NCBI RefSeq assembly: GCF_000682775.1
Contig: NZ_AWFI01000016.1
Coordinates: 1 to 64,000 of the forward strand
Source: Hyphomonas sp. L-53-1-40
GTDB lineage: Bacteria > Pseudomonadota > Alphaproteobacteria > Caulobacterales > Hyphomonadaceae
DNA: 64,000 bases
Direction of reading: 5' to 3'
The notes under the pieces are model-generated. The model saw only the letters and a list, made by a program, of their open reading frames with translations, searched no databases and was not told the DNA's origin. This document shows, one piece after another, positions 43,378-52,228 of this stretch (positions are counted from its first letter, which is position 1; the number at the start of each line of letters is the position of its first letter). A program made the translations under genes and the position numbers.

Positions 43378-43395
43378 TTGCAATCGATTGTATTT
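43378..43395 (+). promoter_or_regulatory. Putative LacI-type operator, copy 1
   Basis: TTGCAATCGATTGTATTT, with the palindromic core CAATCGATTG at 43381-43390. Upstream of the TonB receptor gene. Identical to copies at 43401-43418 and 49683-49700. The CpG-centred palindrome fits LacI-family operators. Confidence 0.8.
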
Positions 43396-43400
43396 ATGTA

Positions 43401-43418
43401 TTGCAATCGATTGTATTT
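43401..43418 (+). promoter_or_regulatory. Putative LacI-type operator, copy 2
   Basis: Exact repeat of copy 1, with core centres 23 bp apart (about two helical turns), 84 nt before the TonB receptor ATG. A tandem pair suggests cooperative repression. Confidence 0.8.
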
Positions 43419-43501
43419 TGATATTATGAAGAGCCAACCGGGACGTGCCGGTCTAGAAATCGACTGGTGCACACACCAGCAGTGATAGGGAGGAAAAAGT
43501 C

Positions 43502-45976
43502 ATGTCGATTGTTCGCAATACACTTTTGCTTGGTGCTGGCGCATTTGCCCTGGCGAATGGCACCGCGTTCAGCCAGGAATCTCTGAGTTCAACTGAAGCA
43601 GAGGCTCGGCAACAAACCGTCATCGTGACCGGTATCGTGAAGGCAGGCGGTCAAAACCGACTCGACAGCTCCATTTCTGTCAGCAGTCTCAATCAAGACG
43701 AGCTGATGAAGACCGCCCCGCGCAGCACCGCAGAAATCTTTCGCGCCCTGCCCGGCATTCGTGCCGAGAGTTCCGCCGGCGGCGGTAACTCCAATATAGC
43801 GGTCCGAGGAATGCCGCTATCCACAGGTGGGGCAAAGTATGTGAGCCTTCAGGAAGACGGGCTGCCGATACTGTTGTTCGGAGATTTCGACTTCGCGCCA
43901 GCCGATGGCTTCTACAAAGTGGACGGTACACTTGACCGCGTTGAGTCAGTTCGGGGCGGTACGGCCTCTACGCTGACCACAAACGGCCCTGGCGGCATCA
44001 TCAACTTCATTTCCAAAACTGGAAGCACAGAAGGTGGTTCGATCGCACTCAGCACGGGACTCGATCATGATGATTACCGGGGAGAATTCGAGTATGGGGG
44101 CGCGCTGACTGACACTGTCTACTTCCATGTTGGAGGCCATTGGCAACAAGGTGGAGACTATCGTGATCTTGGCTTTGATGCGGTCAGTGGCGGTCAAATT
44201 CGCGCCAGCCTCACCAAGGAATTCGAGAACGGCTTCATACGCGTGAACTCGAAGTGGCTGGACAAAGCCGACGCGACATACATGCCACAAGCTGCTGGTC
44301 TGTCTGGTGATGAAGTCACCGACAGCATCGCTGGCTTCTCAGCGACGAATGACAGCCTGCACAGCCCCTACATTCGGAATGGACGCGATGTTGATGGCAA
44401 CAATACCGTCAACAATTACGACCTTGCAGATGGCATCCGCACACAAATCAAGTCTCTAGGTGTTGAGGTAAACTTCGATATTGGTGCAGGAATAAATCTG
44501 GACGCCAAGGCCCGTTACCAAGACATCTCAGGCTATTTCAACGCTCCTTTCACGCACTTTGTGGGCGATGCCGATACTGTTCTGGCATCCACTTATGGCG
44601 GCGCGTCAGGGAGCTTCTTCAACGGTCCCGGCGCGGGCAATCCGGTGACCTCCGCATCGCTGGCGGCCGCGACGGGCAACCCCTATATCTCGGAAGTTGC
44701 CTACTTCAACACCGACCTCGACGATATGAGCAATTTCGCGAGCGAGTTGCGCGCCTCCAAATCGCTGGCCTTTGAAGGCTCTTCATTGGACCTGACAGCC
44801 GGCTACTTCTTCATGAATCAGAAGTTCGTTCAGGATTGGCACTGGAATCGGTTCCTGACATCAACCGACACCAATGCGGCTTTGATCGACGTGAATGGCT
44901 TCACCGACAATGGAATTCTTGGCTACAATCAAGCGTTCGGTTGGACGGGCACCAACCGCAATTATGACCTCGAATATCAGGCCCGCGCACCTTTTGTTGC
45001 AGGAAGTTGGGCACTTGATAACGGTCTGACGATTGACGGTTCAGTGCGCTTCGACACGATAGAGCAAACCGGCACACGCACCGAAGGTGCTGGCGGCGCA
45101 TTTGATGTAGATGGCGACGGCATTATTGACGCCCCGGAAATGATGGTATCGCTCAATACTGGCCAAGGTGGCATCGCCAACTTCGAGGTAGACCACACCT
45201 CCTTCACTCTCGGTGCGAACTATCTGGTTTCAGATACACTCTCCGTATTCGGACGCTACAGCGACGGTGCGGCCTTCAATGGCGAGCGGCAATTGTTCAA
45301 TTCGCTAAATGCAGGTGGCGGACTCGTCCCTGGTGGTGAAGAGACATATGTCGATGAGACGGAACAATTCGAAGCAGGTGTGAAATGGCAAGAATCCAGT
45401 GACGCCATTCCGGGACAGCTTGACCTCTATGTCACCTATTTCAATGCAGAGACAAAAGAGGACAATTACGAAATCACGACCATGACGGCGCTGGGCAATA
45501 CCTATGTCTCGCAGGGAATCGAAACTGAATTCAAATATGGTTATGGCGGCCTGGACCTGGCAGGATCGGTGACCTTCACTGATGCCGAAATAGACGATAG
45601 CGATACCGCGCCTGCCAATATCGGAAACACGCCGCGCCGTCAGGCAGATTGGATCTGGTCCCTTACACCAACTTACACGATCGACGGCCTGGGGCGCATC
45701 GGAGTGAACTTTACCGGCACCACGGACACATATGTCGATGATGACAACGTCTATGTGATGCCCGGCGCAACGATTACAAATTTCTTCGCTGATTGGGACA
45801 TCACCGAACAGGCTACCTTGTCCGTTGGCGTGAACAACGTGTTTGACAAAGTCCTGTTCACAGAAGCCGAGAACGGCCGAGTGTTCGACACCGATGGCGA
45901 TGGTGCTGCAGATGTCATCGTTGCCCGCTCGATCAACGGCACCTCCGCGACTGCAACTCTCAGATACCGCTTCTGA
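43502..45976 (+). CDS. TonB-dependent receptor (carbohydrate uptake type)
   Basis: Outer-membrane receptor of 824 residues. Signal peptide about 1-24 (ends TAFSQES); TonB box QTVIVTGI (39-46); plug domain about 55-170 with PRSTAEIFRALPGIRAES and the LDRVESVRGGTASTLTTNGP stretch; then a beta-barrel ending in aromatic Phe (TATLRYRF). GGGAGGAAAAA precedes the ATG. Two operator copies lie upstream and a LacI regulator gene follows, so it is probably induced by its sugar; with the GH-J enzyme and fructokinase nearby, sucrose or a fructoside is the best guess. Confidence 0.92.
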   Translation: MSIVRNTLLLGAGAFALANGTAFSQESLSSTEAEARQQTVIVTGIVKAGGQNRLDSSISVSSLNQDELMKTAPRSTAEIFRALPGIRAESSAGGGNSNIAVRGMPLSTGGAKYVSLQEDGLPILLFGDFDFAPADGFYKVDGTLDRVESVRGGTASTLTTNGPGGIINFISKTGSTEGGSIALSTGLDHDDYRGEFEYGGALTDTVYFHVGGHWQQGGDYRDLGFDAVSGGQIRASLTKEFENGFIRVNSKWLDKADATYMPQAAGLSGDEVTDSIAGFSATNDSLHSPYIRNGRDVDGNNTVNNYDLADGIRTQIKSLGVEVNFDIGAGINLDAKARYQDISGYFNAPFTHFVGDADTVLASTYGGASGSFFNGPGAGNPVTSASLAAATGNPYISEVAYFNTDLDDMSNFASELRASKSLAFEGSSLDLTAGYFFMNQKFVQDWHWNRFLTSTDTNAALIDVNGFTDNGILGYNQAFGWTGTNRNYDLEYQARAPFVAGSWALDNGLTIDGSVRFDTIEQTGTRTEGAGGAFDVDGDGIIDAPEMMVSLNTGQGGIANFEVDHTSFTLGANYLVSDTLSVFGRYSDGAAFNGERQLFNSLNAGGGLVPGGEETYVDETEQFEAGVKWQESSDAIPGQLDLYVTYFNAETKEDNYEITTMTALGNTYVSQGIETEFKYGYGGLDLAGSVTFTDAEIDDSDTAPANIGNTPRRQADWIWSLTPTYTIDGLGRIGVNFTGTTDTYVDDDNVYVMPGATITNFFADWDITEQATLSVGVNNVFDKVLFTEAENGRVFDTDGDGAADVIVARSINGTSATATLRYRF

Positions 45977-46015
45977 TTGCCTCCTGCATTGTAGCTGAGA
46001 CAGCCAGTCCTTTTC

Positions 46016-46053
46016 GGAGCCTGCCATTCACACTGGCAGGTTCCCATCTTTTC
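46016..46053 (+). terminator. Terminator-like hairpin after the TonB receptor gene
   Basis: GGAGCCTGCCA (46016-46026) pairs with TGGCAGGTTCC (46034-46044), 11 bp with one G-U, 7-nt loop, followed by the T-rich CATCTTTTC. Confidence 0.7.
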
Positions 46054-46254
46054 AGGACGAGGTGCTAGCCACTCCCACAGTTACTTCTGCAAGATCACAT
46101 AATTTCGAGGTCTCGCTATTCCCTTTGTGACTCAGCTTGATTTATAATGGATAATTCGCCCTGTGTGCGGGACACATCGGTCCTTATATGCCCGTTTAAT
46201 CGGCAATTCAGGCTGCAGAGAACAAGACGTCATGACGAGAGGAATTCAGGCGAC

Positions 46255-47292
46255 ATGAGCGAGCACGCAAGTAAGTCGCACCGAAAGATGACTATGGCAG
46301 AGCTCGCCAAGTTGGCCGAGGTTGATGTCTCGACGGTTTCGCGCGCTCTGAACGATAGTCCGTTGGTGAAGGAAAAGACCAAGCGTCTGATCCTCGATAT
46401 CGCGGCCGAGACCGGCTATGCAGTCAATGCCTCGGCGCGAAATCTTAGGCGCCAATCGTCCGAGGCAATCGGAATAGTCATCCCGCTTCGACCGGAATCT
46501 GGCCAGACTATCTCAGACCCCTTCTATCTGGAAATGGTCGGAGCGGTCAGTCAGGCCGCCTCAAAAAATGGCTATGACCTGATCGTGAGTATTCCACGTG
46601 AAGACGAAACAATCGCGGAACGCCGCCTGCTGCAGACGGGTAAAGCTGACGGCCTGATCGTGATCGGCCAGGCAGGCATGTCGCAACGGCTTGAAGAGCT
46701 TGGACCGCTGGGTCGCAAAGTCGTTGTCTGGGGTGGCAACGCTGGTCACCTAAATTACACACTTGTCGGAAGTGACAATGTCGAAGGCGGTCGACTTGCG
46801 GGTGACCATCTCCTTTCGATTGCTCGAAAACGTATATTGTTCCTGGGGCCGGGTCGCCTTCCTGAGGTCCAGCTGCGATACAATGGACTTCTCAAGGCAC
46901 ATGACGAACGTGGCGTACGCTGGGACGATACGTTGACTCTGGACATTGAATTCGGCGCGAAAAATGCGTTCGAGGAAGTTCTTCAATTTTTGGATTCGGG
47001 CAAGAAATTTGATGCCATCTTTGCCGCCTCGGATGTTTTGGCAATGTCCGCTTTGCTGGCGCTCAATGCACGCGGCATTTCTGTGCCAGATGATGTAGCT
47101 GTGGTCGGTTACGACAATATTGCACAAGCTGGTATGGCAACCCCGTCACTCACGACAATTGACCAGAACATAGCCCGTGGCGGCGAACTGATGGTGGAAA
47201 AACTACTCGCTCAACTGGCCGGTGAGACTGCCAAGTCGGAGTTGACGCCCACGCAGCTGATCATTCGTGAATCAAGCGGTGGATCGCGCTAG
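46255..47292 (+). CDS. LacI-family transcriptional regulator of the sugar cluster
   Basis: Repressor of 345 residues: helix-turn-helix TMAELAKLAEVDVSTVSRAL (13-32), hinge helix SARNLRRQS (62-70) and a periplasmic-binding-like sensor domain from GIVIPLRPESG to the end (VGYDNIAQAGMATPSLTTID near 280). ATG at 46255 selected; an ATG at residue 12 is possible. It sits between the receptor and the convergent GH gene, with no operator copy visible in front of itself, so it may be weakly autoregulated or unregulated. Likely binds the 18-bp sites. Confidence 0.92.
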   Translation: MSEHASKSHRKMTMAELAKLAEVDVSTVSRALNDSPLVKEKTKRLILDIAAETGYAVNASARNLRRQSSEAIGIVIPLRPESGQTISDPFYLEMVGAVSQAASKNGYDLIVSIPREDETIAERRLLQTGKADGLIVIGQAGMSQRLEELGPLGRKVVVWGGNAGHLNYTLVGSDNVEGGRLAGDHLLSIARKRILFLGPGRLPEVQLRYNGLLKAHDERGVRWDDTLTLDIEFGAKNAFEEVLQFLDSGKKFDAIFAASDVLAMSALLALNARGISVPDDVAVVGYDNIAQAGMATPSLTTIDQNIARGGELMVEKLLAQLAGETAKSELTPTQLIIRESSGGSR

Positions 47293-47293
47293 G

Positions 47294-48391
47294 CTACGCT
47301 GCTGGACCAGACACCAAAGTCAGAGAAATGTTTCGCACTGGCGGAAAACTCAGCTGCTTCTCCGGGCCCGCTTGCTCAGTAAACGGACCGAGTACGCTCA
47401 ACGTACCCGCCACAAGATCATGGTCCACAAGACTACATCCGAACATGCCATCAAGGCCTGTCAGCACGCTGCCAGACACCAGCGCTGACTCCCATTGCCC
47501 ATCCAATGATGCTGATGTGTACAGTCTTTGCTGAAACTCAACTTCGCTATCAGGCTGGCCTTCAAATTGGCGATTGCAAGCTGATACGAGGAGTAGCCAG
47601 AGATTCGATGCTTTGTCGTGATAGAGTTTCGGGACTTCAGACTGAGTATATTCGGCTGCGTCGGGCAGTTCGATCGGAGGCAGCAACTCCGTCATCGAGA
47701 CGCCAGCCGGCCCTTCCGTGAGTCGCGCGCGCGCTATGGCAGGCCTCGTTGGTCCGATCTTGGCAGACCAGAAGGCATTGAGTTCGTCATTGTGATCCCG
47801 CACCAGGAACGGATCGCGCCAAGCCATTATGGGACCGCCCTCTTCCCCAGCCCGGTCACCCAGTCTATCCAGTGGCCCCAGATAAAACCCCAGGCGGGTG
47901 ATCTGGTCATAGTCGCGCAGGGGACAACTGATCGCGGCAGCAGGCACAGTGGTCATGGCATCCGGTGTTGGGCCTGCCCCTACACAAATAGTCTGGAGGA
48001 AAGTTCGCGCCGGGGAGATGTCACGGACCCCGGTATATCCGAAGAGGGTTTGGCCCGTTTTTCCCATGATGGCAGAACCACTCCACACGTTGAACGCATC
48101 TGCGCCATCGGACGCGCCGCCGGGCTGGATCGCCACACCTTGATCGCGCCACGAGAGACCATTGTCGGCTGAACGGAAATGCCGAATATGAAAGGAATGG
48201 TCGTTGCGCTGCGGCGGCAGGATTGGTGATCCATCGAAGTCCGTCCGACTGAGCGCCAGACAGTATAGATGCAAGTGCCCTTCCCCCGACTGAATCGTCC
48301 AAGAGTCCCACAACCAAAGGTCTGGATGACGAATGTCTCCCGAAAAGGATAGATCGCATGGATCAGGGATCGGCGCTGTACGGCGACTCAT
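47294..48391 (-). CDS. Clan GH-J (GH68/GH32-like) sucrose-active enzyme, cytoplasmic
   Basis: Five-bladed beta-propeller enzyme by motif: LWLWDSW (25-31) with nucleophile D29, comparable to the WDTW of levansucrases; VWSGSAIM (102-109); AWRDPFLV (190-197) with stabiliser D193; and QSEVPKLY (250-257) with acid/base E252. Length 365. No signal peptide, so it would act in the cytoplasm, unlike secreted levansucrases. It follows the MFS gene by 9 nt on the minus strand. With the ROK kinase it probably splits sucrose or a fructoside to give fructose; hydrolysis versus transfer cannot be told. It overlaps nothing of the convergent lacI (1 nt gap). Confidence 0.78.
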   Translation of the reverse strand: MSRRTAPIPDPCDLSFSGDIRHPDLWLWDSWTIQSGEGHLHLYCLALSRTDFDGSPILPPQRNDHSFHIRHFRSADNGLSWRDQGVAIQPGGASDGADAFNVWSGSAIMGKTGQTLFGYTGVRDISPARTFLQTICVGAGPTPDAMTTVPAAAISCPLRDYDQITRLGFYLGPLDRLGDRAGEEGGPIMAWRDPFLVRDHNDELNAFWSAKIGPTRPAIARARLTEGPAGVSMTELLPPIELPDAAEYTQSEVPKLYHDKASNLWLLLVSACNRQFEGQPDSEVEFQQRLYTSASLDGQWESALVSGSVLTGLDGMFGCSLVDHDLVAGTLSVLGPFTEQAGPEKQLSFPPVRNISLTLVSGPAA

Positions 48392-48400
48392 AAACTATCC

Positions 48401-49651
48401 TCAGGAATATTCCGACTGGTCTGCAGCCTTGAGAGCGGCCGCTGCAGGGTTTGCAATCCAGTTCACAAGCCCCATCACGAACAATAAGCCTGCAAAGCCT
48501 GTCGCGAGGACGAAGCCAATCCGCATGTCGCCTCCGCCAAACCTATCACTGGCCACCGCCATCAACAGAGGCGCAAAAGCCGCCGACGCGGCCGTAAAAA
48601 ACAGGATCAGTCCTGCGACTGCGCCATGATCACTCTTTGGAAAACAGCTGATGCCCTTGGAGTTCAGAGTCGGATAGATCATCGACATGAACAGGCCCGA
48701 TAGCGGCAGCAGGAAAACCGCCGCAGATTTACCGATCAGCGCACTTGCGAGGAAACAGCCAAAAATGATCGCCGCGAACGCAAGCATTACCAGCTTCCAG
48801 TCAACGATGCGGAGAATCCAAGCCCCAAGAAACCGTCCGACAGCACGCAATACAAAGAAAATCATCACCGCATATGCCGCAAACATCATGGCGGTGTTGG
48901 TTCCGGTGAACCCTTCGAGAAAGGTTGGCAGCCAAACAAAGATAGCGACTTCGCAGGCGACATAGAGGGCGATGGCCAAGGAAAAACCAAGCGCGTGCGC
49001 ATTGCCCAAAAGTGACAGCGTGTGTCGTACCGACGCTGGCGTCTCCTTCTCACCGGTAATGGGTGGATACTCTGTCACCAACGCAGCGATGATCATCAGC
49101 GCGCACAAACACGCGGCTATCATGTACAGCCAGGTCCAGGACAAGCCCTGGCCCGTCAGCCACACTACCAGCAATGGACCTATGATGGCCCCGACGCCGA
49201 AGAAGCCTTCGACGGCGTTCATACGTGACGTGTGATCATCCGTGGAATTCGCGAGGTCTCCAACCAACGCCAATGCGGAGGTCTTGAATACACCGATGGC
49301 GAGGCCAGAAATGAAGAGCAGGGTAAAGTAAAGCTGAAAAGACTGGCCTGTCATGAAAAGTGCGCTGGCGACGCCATACATTGCCAAACCACCTATGATC
49401 GTCTTCTTGCGTCCGAAGCGATCCGCAAGGAAGCCCAGACCGATCCCGCTCATGGCAATCGCAATCATTGTTGCCCAATGAAACGCGCTCGCCTCAGTAT
49501 TGGAAAGATTCATGTCCACACGCGCGATCTTGATGATCTCGCCGACCGCATCGGTCGTCATGGCGAACATAAAGAACATCGCGTAAGTGAGTGCGGAAAC
49601 GAGCGCTACTGAGACGCCCTTTTTGCCAGACCCTACTTGTGTTCTTGTCAT
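48401..49651 (-). CDS. MFS transporter, probably sugar permease
   Basis: Major facilitator protein of 416 residues with 12 predicted spans. The loop motif GLGFLADRFGRKKTIIGG near 70 is the classic MFS signature between TM2 and TM3. ATG at 49651 has GGAGGAG 9 nt upstream. It shares its divergent promoter, with an operator copy 32 nt upstream of the start, with the fructokinase gene, and is followed by the GH-J gene. It should bring the sugar across the inner membrane after TonB-dependent outer-membrane uptake. Confidence 0.88.
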   Translation of the reverse strand: MTRTQVGSGKKGVSVALVSALTYAMFFMFAMTTDAVGEIIKIARVDMNLSNTEASAFHWATMIAIAMSGIGLGFLADRFGRKKTIIGGLAMYGVASALFMTGQSFQLYFTLLFISGLAIGVFKTSALALVGDLANSTDDHTSRMNAVEGFFGVGAIIGPLLVVWLTGQGLSWTWLYMIAACLCALMIIAALVTEYPPITGEKETPASVRHTLSLLGNAHALGFSLAIALYVACEVAIFVWLPTFLEGFTGTNTAMMFAAYAVMIFFVLRAVGRFLGAWILRIVDWKLVMLAFAAIIFGCFLASALIGKSAAVFLLPLSGLFMSMIYPTLNSKGISCFPKSDHGAVAGLILFFTAASAAFAPLLMAVASDRFGGGDMRIGFVLATGFAGLLFVMGLVNWIANPAAAALKAADQSEYS

Positions 49652-49682
49652 CTTGTTGTCTCCTCCGCGATTGTGATAACAA

Positions 49683-49700
49683 AAATACAATCGATTGCAA
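49683..49700 (-). promoter_or_regulatory. Putative LacI-type operator, copy 3 (MFS/fructokinase divergent promoter)
   Basis: AAATACAATCGATTGCAA on the plus strand, i.e. the same 18-mer as copies 1 and 2 in reverse. Lies 31 nt from the MFS ATG and 39 nt from the fructokinase ATG, so one site could control both directions. Confidence 0.8.
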
Positions 49701-49739: not shown

Positions 49740-50630
49740 ATGTCGACCAGAAACTTTCGCGGCGGAATCGATGCTGGCGGCACCACGTTCAAATGTGGCA
49801 TCATGGACTATAATGGTAACATCGTTCAGAAGTTTCGCGTCAAAGTCTCGACACCAGACGAAACTATTTCCAGCTGCATCAATTTTTTTCGGCCCGTTTT
49901 CGAAACCGAACGCCTGTCTTCGTTCGGAATCGCCAGCTTCGGGCCGATCGATATCGATCCGCGGTCCTCAACTTATGGCACCATTTTACAAACACCAAAG
50001 CCCGGTTGGTCCCTAACCGACCTCAAGACCGCGTTCGGCTCTGCTATGGGCGTATCTGTTCGCCTGGACACAGATGTGAACGGCGCTCTAAGGGCAGAGA
50101 TGGCATACGGAGCAGCAAAGCATGTGGACTCCGCTGCCTATGTCACTATTGGCACCGGTATTGGCGCAGGAGTTTTTGCCAATAATCAGCTCTTGGCACA
50201 CCCCCACCATCCAGAGTTTGGCCACATACCTGTGAACCGTCATCCCTTCGACTCAAGCTTCAATAGCGTTTGCCCATATCATGATGATTGTCTGGAAGGG
50301 CTTGCCTCCGCCACGGCGGTGCACGCCCGGGCCGGCGAGCCTACTGCACTGCCACAAGACCATCCTGTTTGGGACGTCACGGCTGATTACCTGGCTCAGG
50401 CGTGCCGCAGCTTGTTCCTGACAGCCCGCCTGAACCGAATCATTCTGGGCGGAGGGCTTATGCTGGCGCCGCACCTTCTGAGCCGCATACACGTCGAATT
50501 CGTTCGTCAGATGAACGGCTATCTCGGGATGGATTACCCGATTGCCGAAGACCTCATTTGCACTCCGGCCTTGGGAGATGATGCCGGTCTGATCGGCGCG
50601 ATCTTGTTGGGAGGTGACGCAGAACACTAG
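49740..50630 (+). CDS. ROK-family fructokinase-like sugar kinase
   Basis: ATP-dependent sugar kinase of 296 residues from ATG 49740 (upstream in-frame ATGs at 49701 and 49722 are possible). Phosphate loop GGIDAGGTTFKCG (8-20), catalytic D112 in RLDTDVNGALRAE, IGTGIGAGVFANN, and the ROK zinc site HPEFGHIPVNRHPF with C178, H181, C184 (VCPYHDDCLEG). This Zn form with the C-x2-H-x2-C group is typical of ROK fructokinases. It would make fructose-6-phosphate from sucrose cleavage. Divergent from the MFS gene. Confidence 0.86.
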   Translation: MSTRNFRGGIDAGGTTFKCGIMDYNGNIVQKFRVKVSTPDETISSCINFFRPVFETERLSSFGIASFGPIDIDPRSSTYGTILQTPKPGWSLTDLKTAFGSAMGVSVRLDTDVNGALRAEMAYGAAKHVDSAAYVTIGTGIGAGVFANNQLLAHPHHPEFGHIPVNRHPFDSSFNSVCPYHDDCLEGLASATAVHARAGEPTALPQDHPVWDVTADYLAQACRSLFLTARLNRIILGGGLMLAPHLLSRIHVEFVRQMNGYLGMDYPIAEDLICTPALGDDAGLIGAILLGGDAEH

Positions 50631-50818
50631 AATTTGCGCACTCATAGTTCAGCAAATACAGAGCACACCAAAACGCTCACTATGCTGATTTCCTCCAATT
50701 GCTCGCGCCAACTACCAGCTGGCAGTTTGCTTCATTTTGGCGCAACTTTTTCAGCTCTAGCGAGTTGGTTGATCATTGTGGCCGGAATGCCGTTGATCAA
50801 CCAGAAGATGAGGATGCT

Positions 50819-52228
50819 GTGTCCAGACTCGTAGTTTTTTCGAACCGATTGCCATTGGGATCATCGCCGTCTGGAGGACTGGTCGTTGCCTTGGGAAGAA
50901 CAATGGAGCAGCGAGGGGGAGTGTGGATTGGCGCCACGCCCGGGAAAAGCGGAACAGGCCAGCATACGCTCCAGTCATATGAAGGAGCCAGCTTTGACCG
51001 GCACGCGCTTCATCTGCCGGAAGGCGAATACAACGACTATTACCTGGGATATTCGAACTCCGTCCTGTGGCCGCTTTTCCATGGTCGCACAGACCTTCTG
51101 GATGTCGAAGAAGGACAACTCGCAGCCTATAGCAGCGTCAACAGGAAGATGGCGGAAGCATCTGTCAACCTGATCCAGAAAGGCGATGTGATCTGGATCC
51201 ATGATTATCACTTCATTCCTCTCGCTGCGGAACTGCGCAAATTGGGCGTCAACAATCCGATCGGTTTCTTTCTGCACACGCCATTCCCATCCTCGAACAA
51301 TGTACGCGCGATGTCTCACAAAGAATTCTTGCTGGATTGGTTGGCTGCGTACGATCTGGTGGGATTGCAAACCCAACGCGATGTCTCTGCACTGATCGAG
51401 GTTTGCCGCGCCACTTTCGGCGGACAGTTGCTGTCAGACGGGAGAATCCGCTGCAAAGGTCAGGATATCTGGGCGGCCAGCTTTCCAATTGGGATAGATG
51501 CGAAGACGTTCCGGCAGACAGCCGAGACGCAGGAAATGACGTCACCCCGGATTGACCCTGGCCAGAAACTTCTGATCGGCGTGGACCGATTGGATTATTC
51601 AAAAGGACTGCCTCACAAGTTCCGTGGATTTCAGCGCTTTCTGGAAGATCAGGATTCCGAAAGTGAGCGCCTTACACTGTTGCAAATCGCATCGCCGACG
51701 CGCGAAAATGTGGAAGCCTACCAGGATATCCGGCGCCAGCTTGAGCAGTTATCCGGTGAGGTCAATGGAGAGTTTGCCGAGCTTGGATACATGCCTATCC
51801 AGTACATCCATCGCGCTGTGCCCCGCGACTATCTGGCAGGCCTCTATCGACGGGCTGCGATTGGTCTCGTCACACCACTGATCGATGGAATGAATCTGGT
51901 GGCGAAAGAATACGTGACTGCGCAGGATTCCAGTGATCCCGGTGTACTGATACTCTCGGAATCTGCGGGGGCGGCAGAGCAGCTGGGCATTGGCGCCCTG
52001 ACGGTCAATCCCTTCGATCCGTCCTCTATTGCTGGCGCGATACGCAAAGCCGTCGCCATGACCCTGACCGAACGTATAGAACGCCATCAGGCCATGTGGG
52101 ATAAAATTTCTCAGCACGACGTCTATTGGTGGACTGAAACCTTCCTGAACCGGCTAGACAAAAATGCAAGTTCCCGCAGGAAAAGGAGTAGGTCCATTGC
52201 GGACCTGGAGACAATGTTGCGCGGTTAA
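50819..52228 (+). CDS. otsA: GT20 trehalose-6-phosphate synthase (OtsA-like)
   Basis: Retaining glycosyltransferase of 469 residues from GTG 50819, whose SRLVVFSNRLPLGSSPSGGL matches the OtsA N-terminus; GAGGA precedes it. WIHDYHFIPLAAELRK near 125, GVDRLDYSKGLPHKFRGF near 255 and LIDGMNLVAKEYVTAQ near 353 are conserved donor and acceptor motifs. It should join UDP- or other NDP-glucose to glucose-6-phosphate. No otsB phosphatase is in the window. It lies 188 nt after the fructokinase gene, co-directional, so it may use glucose-6-phosphate from the sugar pathway, but its regulation is not evident; a related product such as glucosylglycerol-phosphate is an alternative. Confidence 0.85.
   Translation: MSRLVVFSNRLPLGSSPSGGLVVALGRTMEQRGGVWIGATPGKSGTGQHTLQSYEGASFDRHALHLPEGEYNDYYLGYSNSVLWPLFHGRTDLLDVEEGQLAAYSSVNRKMAEASVNLIQKGDVIWIHDYHFIPLAAELRKLGVNNPIGFFLHTPFPSSNNVRAMSHKEFLLDWLAAYDLVGLQTQRDVSALIEVCRATFGGQLLSDGRIRCKGQDIWAASFPIGIDAKTFRQTAETQEMTSPRIDPGQKLLIGVDRLDYSKGLPHKFRGFQRFLEDQDSESERLTLLQIASPTRENVEAYQDIRRQLEQLSGEVNGEFAELGYMPIQYIHRAVPRDYLAGLYRRAAIGLVTPLIDGMNLVAKEYVTAQDSSDPGVLILSESAGAAEQLGIGALTVNPFDPSSIAGAIRKAVAMTLTERIERHQAMWDKISQHDVYWWTETFLNRLDKNASSRRKRSRSIADLETMLRG

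Follow-up and report, generated by a model that had tools for sequence, protein, structure and literature searches.

Predicted LacI operators outline a probable sucrose or fructoside regulon in Hyphomonas

Three identical 18-mers around a sugar gene cluster of Hyphomonas sp. L-53-1-40 are very probably, judging from their letters and placement, operators for a LacI-family repressor whose gene lies between them at 46255–47292. The stretch analysed (hereafter the window) comprises 64,000 nucleotides, positions 1 to 64,000 of contig NZ_AWFI01000016.1, and the sites are termed O1 (43378–43395, +), O2 (43401–43418, +) and O3 (49683–49700, −). O1 and O2, the gene-distal and gene-proximal members of a tandem pair, precede the gene for a TonB-dependent receptor. 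O3 lies between divergent genes for a major facilitator superfamily (MFS) permease and a ROK-family kinase. In the model we favour, with a probability of roughly 0.85, the repressor would silence the receptor gene, an operon of the MFS gene and a gene for a protein resembling glycoside hydrolase family 68 (GH68), and the kinase gene through O1–O3, and sucrose or a short fructoside would relieve the repression. The prediction amounts to a compact sugar-responsive switch in Hyphomonas and its relatives.

The 18-mer TTGCAATCGATTGTATTT matches all three places with 0 mismatches, as the initial annotation had reported. No further match with up to 3 mismatches is found in the window, and 100 shuffles give an average of 0.01. 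The palindromic core CAATCGATTG is confined to the same three places, with no other window site at most one mismatch away; since sites this close to the core average 3.84 in the shuffles, it is the 18-mer that is improbable and not the core alone. The assembly of the same genome (G000; 3,310,973 bases in 21 contigs, 99.94% complete) holds three copies of the 18-mer, all inside the sugar cluster, so that the claimed arrangement, with sites only before the receptor gene and between the MFS and ROK genes and lacI in between, holds genome-wide. Abundance elsewhere had been named as the finding that would speak against a regulon; the rest of the genome differs from the 18-mer by at least 2 mismatches, the next-best matches being one with 2 (C19:272) and four with 3, among them C1:588634, inside an open reading frame (ORF), and C15:118854. 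(Genomes, contigs and loci are cited by our handles G, C and L.) The wider palindrome TRCAAWCGWTTGYA, or W-form, has five perfect places in the assembly, namely the three cluster sites, C19:275 and C15:284946, the last roughly 200 bp ahead of a 190-aa ORF and shortly after another gene ends. O1 and O2 are spaced 23 bp start to start and occupy 84–124 bp upstream of the receptor ATG; O3 lies 32–49 bp upstream of the MFS ATG, within the 88-bp gap to the kinase gene.

An even palindrome with a central CG is conserved before sugar genes in orthologous loci. A scan of species genomes provided 60 loci, by their titles mostly from Alphaproteobacteria with some from Gammaproteobacteria and Bacteroidota, and together with the window and L030, L042, L087 and L088 these form a set of 65 loci (1,018,036 bases), which includes near-duplicate species and in which L087 and L088 were chosen for having LacI or the motif. 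Perfect TRCAAWCGWTTGYA sites number 91, in 40 of the 65 loci, compared with 0, 0, 0, 1 and 0 in five Markov shuffles. Of the 91 sites, 86 fall near the estimated start of a cluster-type gene, no more than 350 bp ahead of it or 60 bp past it; one is located inside a named gene. Neighbouring sites within 60 bp, counted at up to one mismatch, form 28 pairs, 26 of which are spaced 21–24 bp (21 bp in 2, 22 bp in 9, 23 bp in 13, 24 bp in 2, and 26 and 45 bp in one each), so the tandem spacing noted initially before the window receptor gene is a conserved property. Receptor sites occur in 41 loci, as tandems 21–24 bp apart in 22, singly in 12 and otherwise in 7; the position of O3 in the MFS/ROK gap likewise holds sites in many homologous clusters. 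The pattern TTGCAAWCGWTTGTATTT, the 18-mer with W at two variable places, was found at 15 places in 11 of 398 genomes of the order, and a reversed control pattern had 0 matches there. Comparison of homologous clusters, as had been proposed, placed it directly before a TonB receptor gene or between MFS and ROK genes in 9/9 loci examined besides that of the window (G033 and G062 among the nine were already in the 65-locus set, and a place in G136 lies outside the nine).

The motif also tends to accompany the repressor. Among 105 genomes of the family, the strict motif is present in 8, comprising 7 of the 20 with a LacI orthologue (E at most 1e-90) and 1 of the 85 without one (Fisher p 2.4e-5). 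The GH68-like protein is encoded in 18 of these 105 genomes, and a LacI gene is adjacent to its gene in 17/17 loci other than that of the window, although one such LacI, in L039, is only 41% identical to the window protein. The loci allow recognition helix and operator to be compared, so that the specificity rule could be put to a direct test, and 63 of them were sorted by helix. The window LacI carries the recognition helix VDVSTVSRALN. With a helix of the V[DN][VIA]S type, a W-form site was present in 31/37 loci (DVS 14/15, DIS 11/14, NVS 2/2, DAS 1/3 and NAS 1/1, plus L112 and L125), a tally made by hand, because a loose pattern had left L112, L125 and three further loci unclassed. The misses are L111, L119, L120, L122 and L133, which have one-mismatch sites, and L138, which has none. 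With an SKST helix, a W-form site was present in 1/5 loci, where it lies inside the GH68-like gene (L144); C or G stands at the inner position in 3/5, and neither form was seen in L121 and L137. The motif thus appears to go with the VD[VIA]S/VN[VA]S-type helix and to be mostly missing or altered with the SKST type. Four loci of gammaproteobacterial or unassigned origin (L144, L147, L151 and L161) have CAATCGGTTG-type sites instead, and L144, L147 and L161 encode an SKST-type helix; recognition helix and operator may possibly have changed together in them. No W-form site was found in L151, L153 and L162, the last three of the 63 loci.

The asymmetric TTT flank of the 18-mer, from which a specific regulator had been suggested, recurs in relatives, and its polarity was read toward the gene as TGCAA upstream with TTGTA downstream (forward), the reverse, or symmetric and other. 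Proximal receptor sites are forward in 16 cases, reverse in 0 and symmetric or other in 7; permease sites divide 17, 2 and 14, distal receptor sites 3, 5 and 15, and single receptor sites 1, 1 and 10. In permease promoters TA follows TTGCAA after 16 or 17 bp in 22/29, other offsets outside the operator reaching at most 5, and the window MFS promoter reads TTGCAA-16-TATCAC. The simplest reading is that at permease promoters the repressor sits over TTGCAA as −35 box and TANNNN as −10 box; for the window this would make 49700–49695 within O3 the candidate −35 box and 49673–49678 (−) the candidate −10 box. In receptor promoters (n = 43) TA stands at offsets 16–17 in 12 and at offset 21 in 9, and the −10 signal is ambiguous; TTGCAA at 43401–43406 within O2 is the candidate −35 box of the window receptor promoter. 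A sigma-70 scan did not single out the candidate promoters (3 promoter-like sites vs 4.3 expected). The asymmetric flank is best explained by promoter overlap, the flank being directional because the gene-distal half TTGCAA would double as the −35 box. Asymmetric recognition by the regulator is disfavoured as the cause, since the polarity is gene-relative, strong only at the gene-nearest site and accompanied by the permease −10 signal.

The genes around the sites are consistent with sugar uptake and breakdown. The receptor (824 aa; 43502–45976, +) matches PF00593 (E 1.1e-21) and PF07715 (E 3e-11). The LacI ORF spans 46147–47292 (+), with ATG 46255 a likelier start than the ORF start, and its helix-turn-helix (PF00356, E 1e-10) and sugar-binding (PF13377, E 8.4e-28) domains both score above cut-off. 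On the opposite strand follow the GH68-like gene (365 aa; 47294–48391, −), which the initial annotation omits from between lacI and the MFS gene, and the MFS gene (48401–49651, −; PF07690, E 8.3e-38), whose ORF runs to 49804 and whose ribosome-binding site suggests a start at ATG 49651. These two genes probably form an operon, because they share a strand and are separated by about 10 bp. The kinase (49740–50630, +, presumed start; PF00480, E 2.4e-48) is fructokinase-like, being nearest to the ScrK model (E 2.3e-70) at 237 bits, below the model cut-off of 400. In LacI-family local sugar regulons a site before the regulator's own gene is common and not obligatory; no site within 4 mismatches was found before lacI in 45970–46260. 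Transcription running on from the receptor gene could still reach lacI. A terminator-like stem lies between the two at 46016–46044 (+; 11 pairs, 7 of them G-C), and is weak evidence because such stems are about as many in the scan (10) as in shuffles (7.8).

The GH68-like protein matches no Pfam family at E 0.001; against PF02435 it reaches E 0.0093 and 15.4 bits, under the gathering score of 27. When 18 homologues were scanned singly with E up to 0.1, PF02435 was found in 14/18 (best 4.8e-6) and PF00251 (GH32) in 9/18, and a profile of the 18 searched against the Protein Data Bank (PDB) retrieved levansucrases (best E 5.7e-7). Its predicted structure has a mean predicted local distance difference test (pLDDT) score of 91.6; ranks 1–26 of the best 50 Foldseek matches are all levansucrases or inulosucrases, and by Z, among the matches listed, an arabinofuranosidase (GH43), GH68 enzymes and levanases (GH32) tie near 26. 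The predicted model has the propeller fold of GH68 structures, and in the alignment D29, R192-D193-P194 and E252 are invariant in 18/18 homologues; D29, D193 and E252 are presumably the nucleophile, transition-state stabiliser and acid/base. By profile and, among the matches listed, by Foldseek, the nearest relatives of the window protein are thus GH68 levansucrases and inulosucrases (such as PDB 1pt2 and 7bjc), with which it shares the D, RDP and E positions, whereas it is shorter, lies under the Pfam cut-off, has no signal peptide visible by eye and is encoded in a permease/kinase operon. It is probably a fructoside-active enzyme that is formally outside GH68 by the Pfam model, and we infer a cytosolic fructoside hydrolase. 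The analysis thereby gives a likely function to a protein group that has no Pfam name.

We infer the binding, repression, cooperativity, effector and substrate of the proposed switch as follows. When no inducer is present, LacI dimers would sit on O1, O2 and O3, with O1 and O2 probably occupied cooperatively because 23 bp corresponds to about two helical turns. O2 and O3 would cover the −35 box and spacer of the receptor and MFS/GH68-like promoters, and O3 also stands in front of the divergent kinase gene; because the operators overlap or adjoin the promoters, RNA polymerase would be kept off the receptor, MFS/GH68-like and kinase genes. Upon entry of the sugar, for which sucrose or a short fructoside is the likeliest candidate, the sugar or a product of it would release the repressor, and receptor, permease, GH68-like hydrolase and fructokinase would be made.

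Several observations weigh against this assignment. The loci are related, so the site counts are not independent. Of the LacI-bearing family genomes, 13/20 have no strict motif, some of them having W variants, and the sole strict site in a genome lacking the orthologue (G035) lies inside an ORF. W-form sites accompany three of the four other helices, STS, SVS and SRS (L156, L164 and L165; the fourth, SPK in L163, has none), and are present in 3 of 14 loci where no LacI was found within 6 kb. G052 encodes LacI and carries an O3-like site (1 mismatch) but none before its receptor gene; G070 retains a LacI 80% identical to that of the window, yet 19.5 kb there contain no site within 2 mismatches. 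The sites with a different helix or no nearby LacI, and the LacI without sites in G070, would fit a reading in which O1–O3 serve another regulator, a second LacI-type protein or a member of another family, while the adjacent lacI controls something else. LacI paralogues probably exist in the same genome, since a first look with the LacI query gave 15 candidates. The co-occurrence of the motif with the LacI orthologue across family genomes and the adjacency of lacI in 17/17 family loci speak for the adjacent repressor, and a different regulator seems quite improbable. The identity of the three copies, flanks included, might suggest a repeat of no regulatory role, dispersed or recently duplicated, but this reading carries next to no weight; it is contradicted by the lack of any further genome copy below 2 mismatches and by sites with matching position and spacing in other genera, whose surroundings have diverged.

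With LacI taken as the regulator of O1–O3, it might still activate rather than repress, or the sugar might be neither sucrose nor a fructoside (perhaps a different furanoside or an acylated sugar). The tie by Z of GH43, GH68 and GH32 folds among the matches listed, the score of the GH68-like protein below the Pfam cut-off, and clusters with alpha/beta-hydrolase genes preceded by a site lean this way. Sequence profile and, among the matches listed, Foldseek nevertheless both rank GH68 first, the partner kinase is fructokinase-like, a GH32 gene lies under the same site in G023, and the overlap of operators with promoters suits repression, so that we regard activation or a different sugar as fairly unlikely. 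A composite reading, in which the GH68-like proteins form a distinct family of cytosolic fructosidases close to GH68, GH32 and GH43 and act on a substrate other than plain sucrose, the gene-distal operator half is held as a −35 box with the other half free to drift, and the Hyphomonas repressor has also gained a small gene beside ruvB as a distant target, is distinctly unlikely as a whole.

By analogy, the locus under the repressor model is a clear, unexceptional case of a known type of switch, previously seen in other lineages, and is classed with it because the ScrR spacing and the tested sux locus share its logic. In Xanthomonas campestris pv. campestris, induction of the sux locus (SuxR, SuxA, SuxC, SuxB) by sucrose and its repression by SuxR were measured (PMC1790865). 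Both loci combine a LacI-family repressor, a TonB receptor and an inner-membrane sugar transporter with an enzyme; the sux enzyme is an intracellular sucrose-degrading amylosucrase, whereas the Hyphomonas locus has the GH68-like protein and a ROK kinase. The comparison with this sucrose carbohydrate-utilization (CUT) locus is one of gene content and logic, not of LacI orthology. In Ravcheev et al. (2014; PMC4052901), distances between LacI sites peak at 13, 22 and 32 bp, and ScrR of Burkholderiales has double sites only, 21–22 bp apart, read as cooperative binding. ScrR and other sucrose LacI regulators resemble the present case in the even palindrome with central CG and the double sites, and the ScrR regulon in containing permease, outer-membrane protein, hydrolase and kinase (PMC4052901). 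The lineage differs, and the likeness is one of palindrome type, spacing and regulon content. Among titles and abstract beginnings on Hyphomonas sucrose uptake via TonB-dependent receptors, the regulon was not found; a search for intracellular GH68 enzymes with marine TonB-dependent sucrose uptake returned none; and no paper containing the motif letters, among the matches listed, concerns a LacI regulator by title. A search pairing GH68 with Hyphomonadaceae returned one genome paper.

The initial proposal of a defined sugar regulon is supported for the cluster, and the set is wider than proposed, including the GH68-like gene and perhaps, at C15 and C19, two distant members. The C19 palindrome (G000:C19:275-288) precedes a small gene without a name, close to a ruvB identified by eye, and recurs there at L090:4430-4443 and L091:8840-8853. 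All three genomes with this site possess LacI. Homologues of the small gene are found in 11/105 family genomes; in the remaining eight of these, where identity is at most 40%, no nearby site came within 3 mismatches. The product of the small gene matches no Pfam family at cut-off.

Further arrangements were seen in relatives. In G023, genes for a GH32 fructosidase (PF00251, E 4.5e-79) and a TonB receptor diverge around a perfect site (L088:1026-5249) that lies apart from the genome's main cluster. At L043:688-3741, which coincides with L159, genes of the alpha-amylase family (GH13-type) and of the MFS adjoin LacI, with a one-mismatch site between. At L034:10914-13352 and in its relatives L125, L129, L131 and L149, alpha/beta-hydrolase genes (PF07859) stand behind a site next to lacI, which suggests an acylated substrate in some Hyphomonas.

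An inverted repeat, CTGGTG-NNNN-CACCAG, lies in the receptor leader just before the ribosome-binding site (43464–43479, +), its one exact place in the genome. It is shared by three Hyphomonas genomes, the window, G037 and G052 (loci L028:4847-4862 and L027:9475-9490), with identical stem and different loop, and is retained in G052, where the receptor operators are gone. Folding of the receptor leader RNA showed no excess stability over shuffles (z −0.73, −1.33 and 0.67).

Behind the kinase gene, an OtsA-like trehalose-phosphate synthase gene occupies 50699–52228 (+). The G070 locus appears decayed (L084, G070:C5:34500-54000): its receptor gene is fragmented, a GH68-like gene was not found genome-wide nor a ROK match in the 19.5-kb stretch, and LacI, MFS and OtsA are kept. 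Of the other genomes looked at, only G052, G037 and G070 have an OtsA-like gene next to the cluster.

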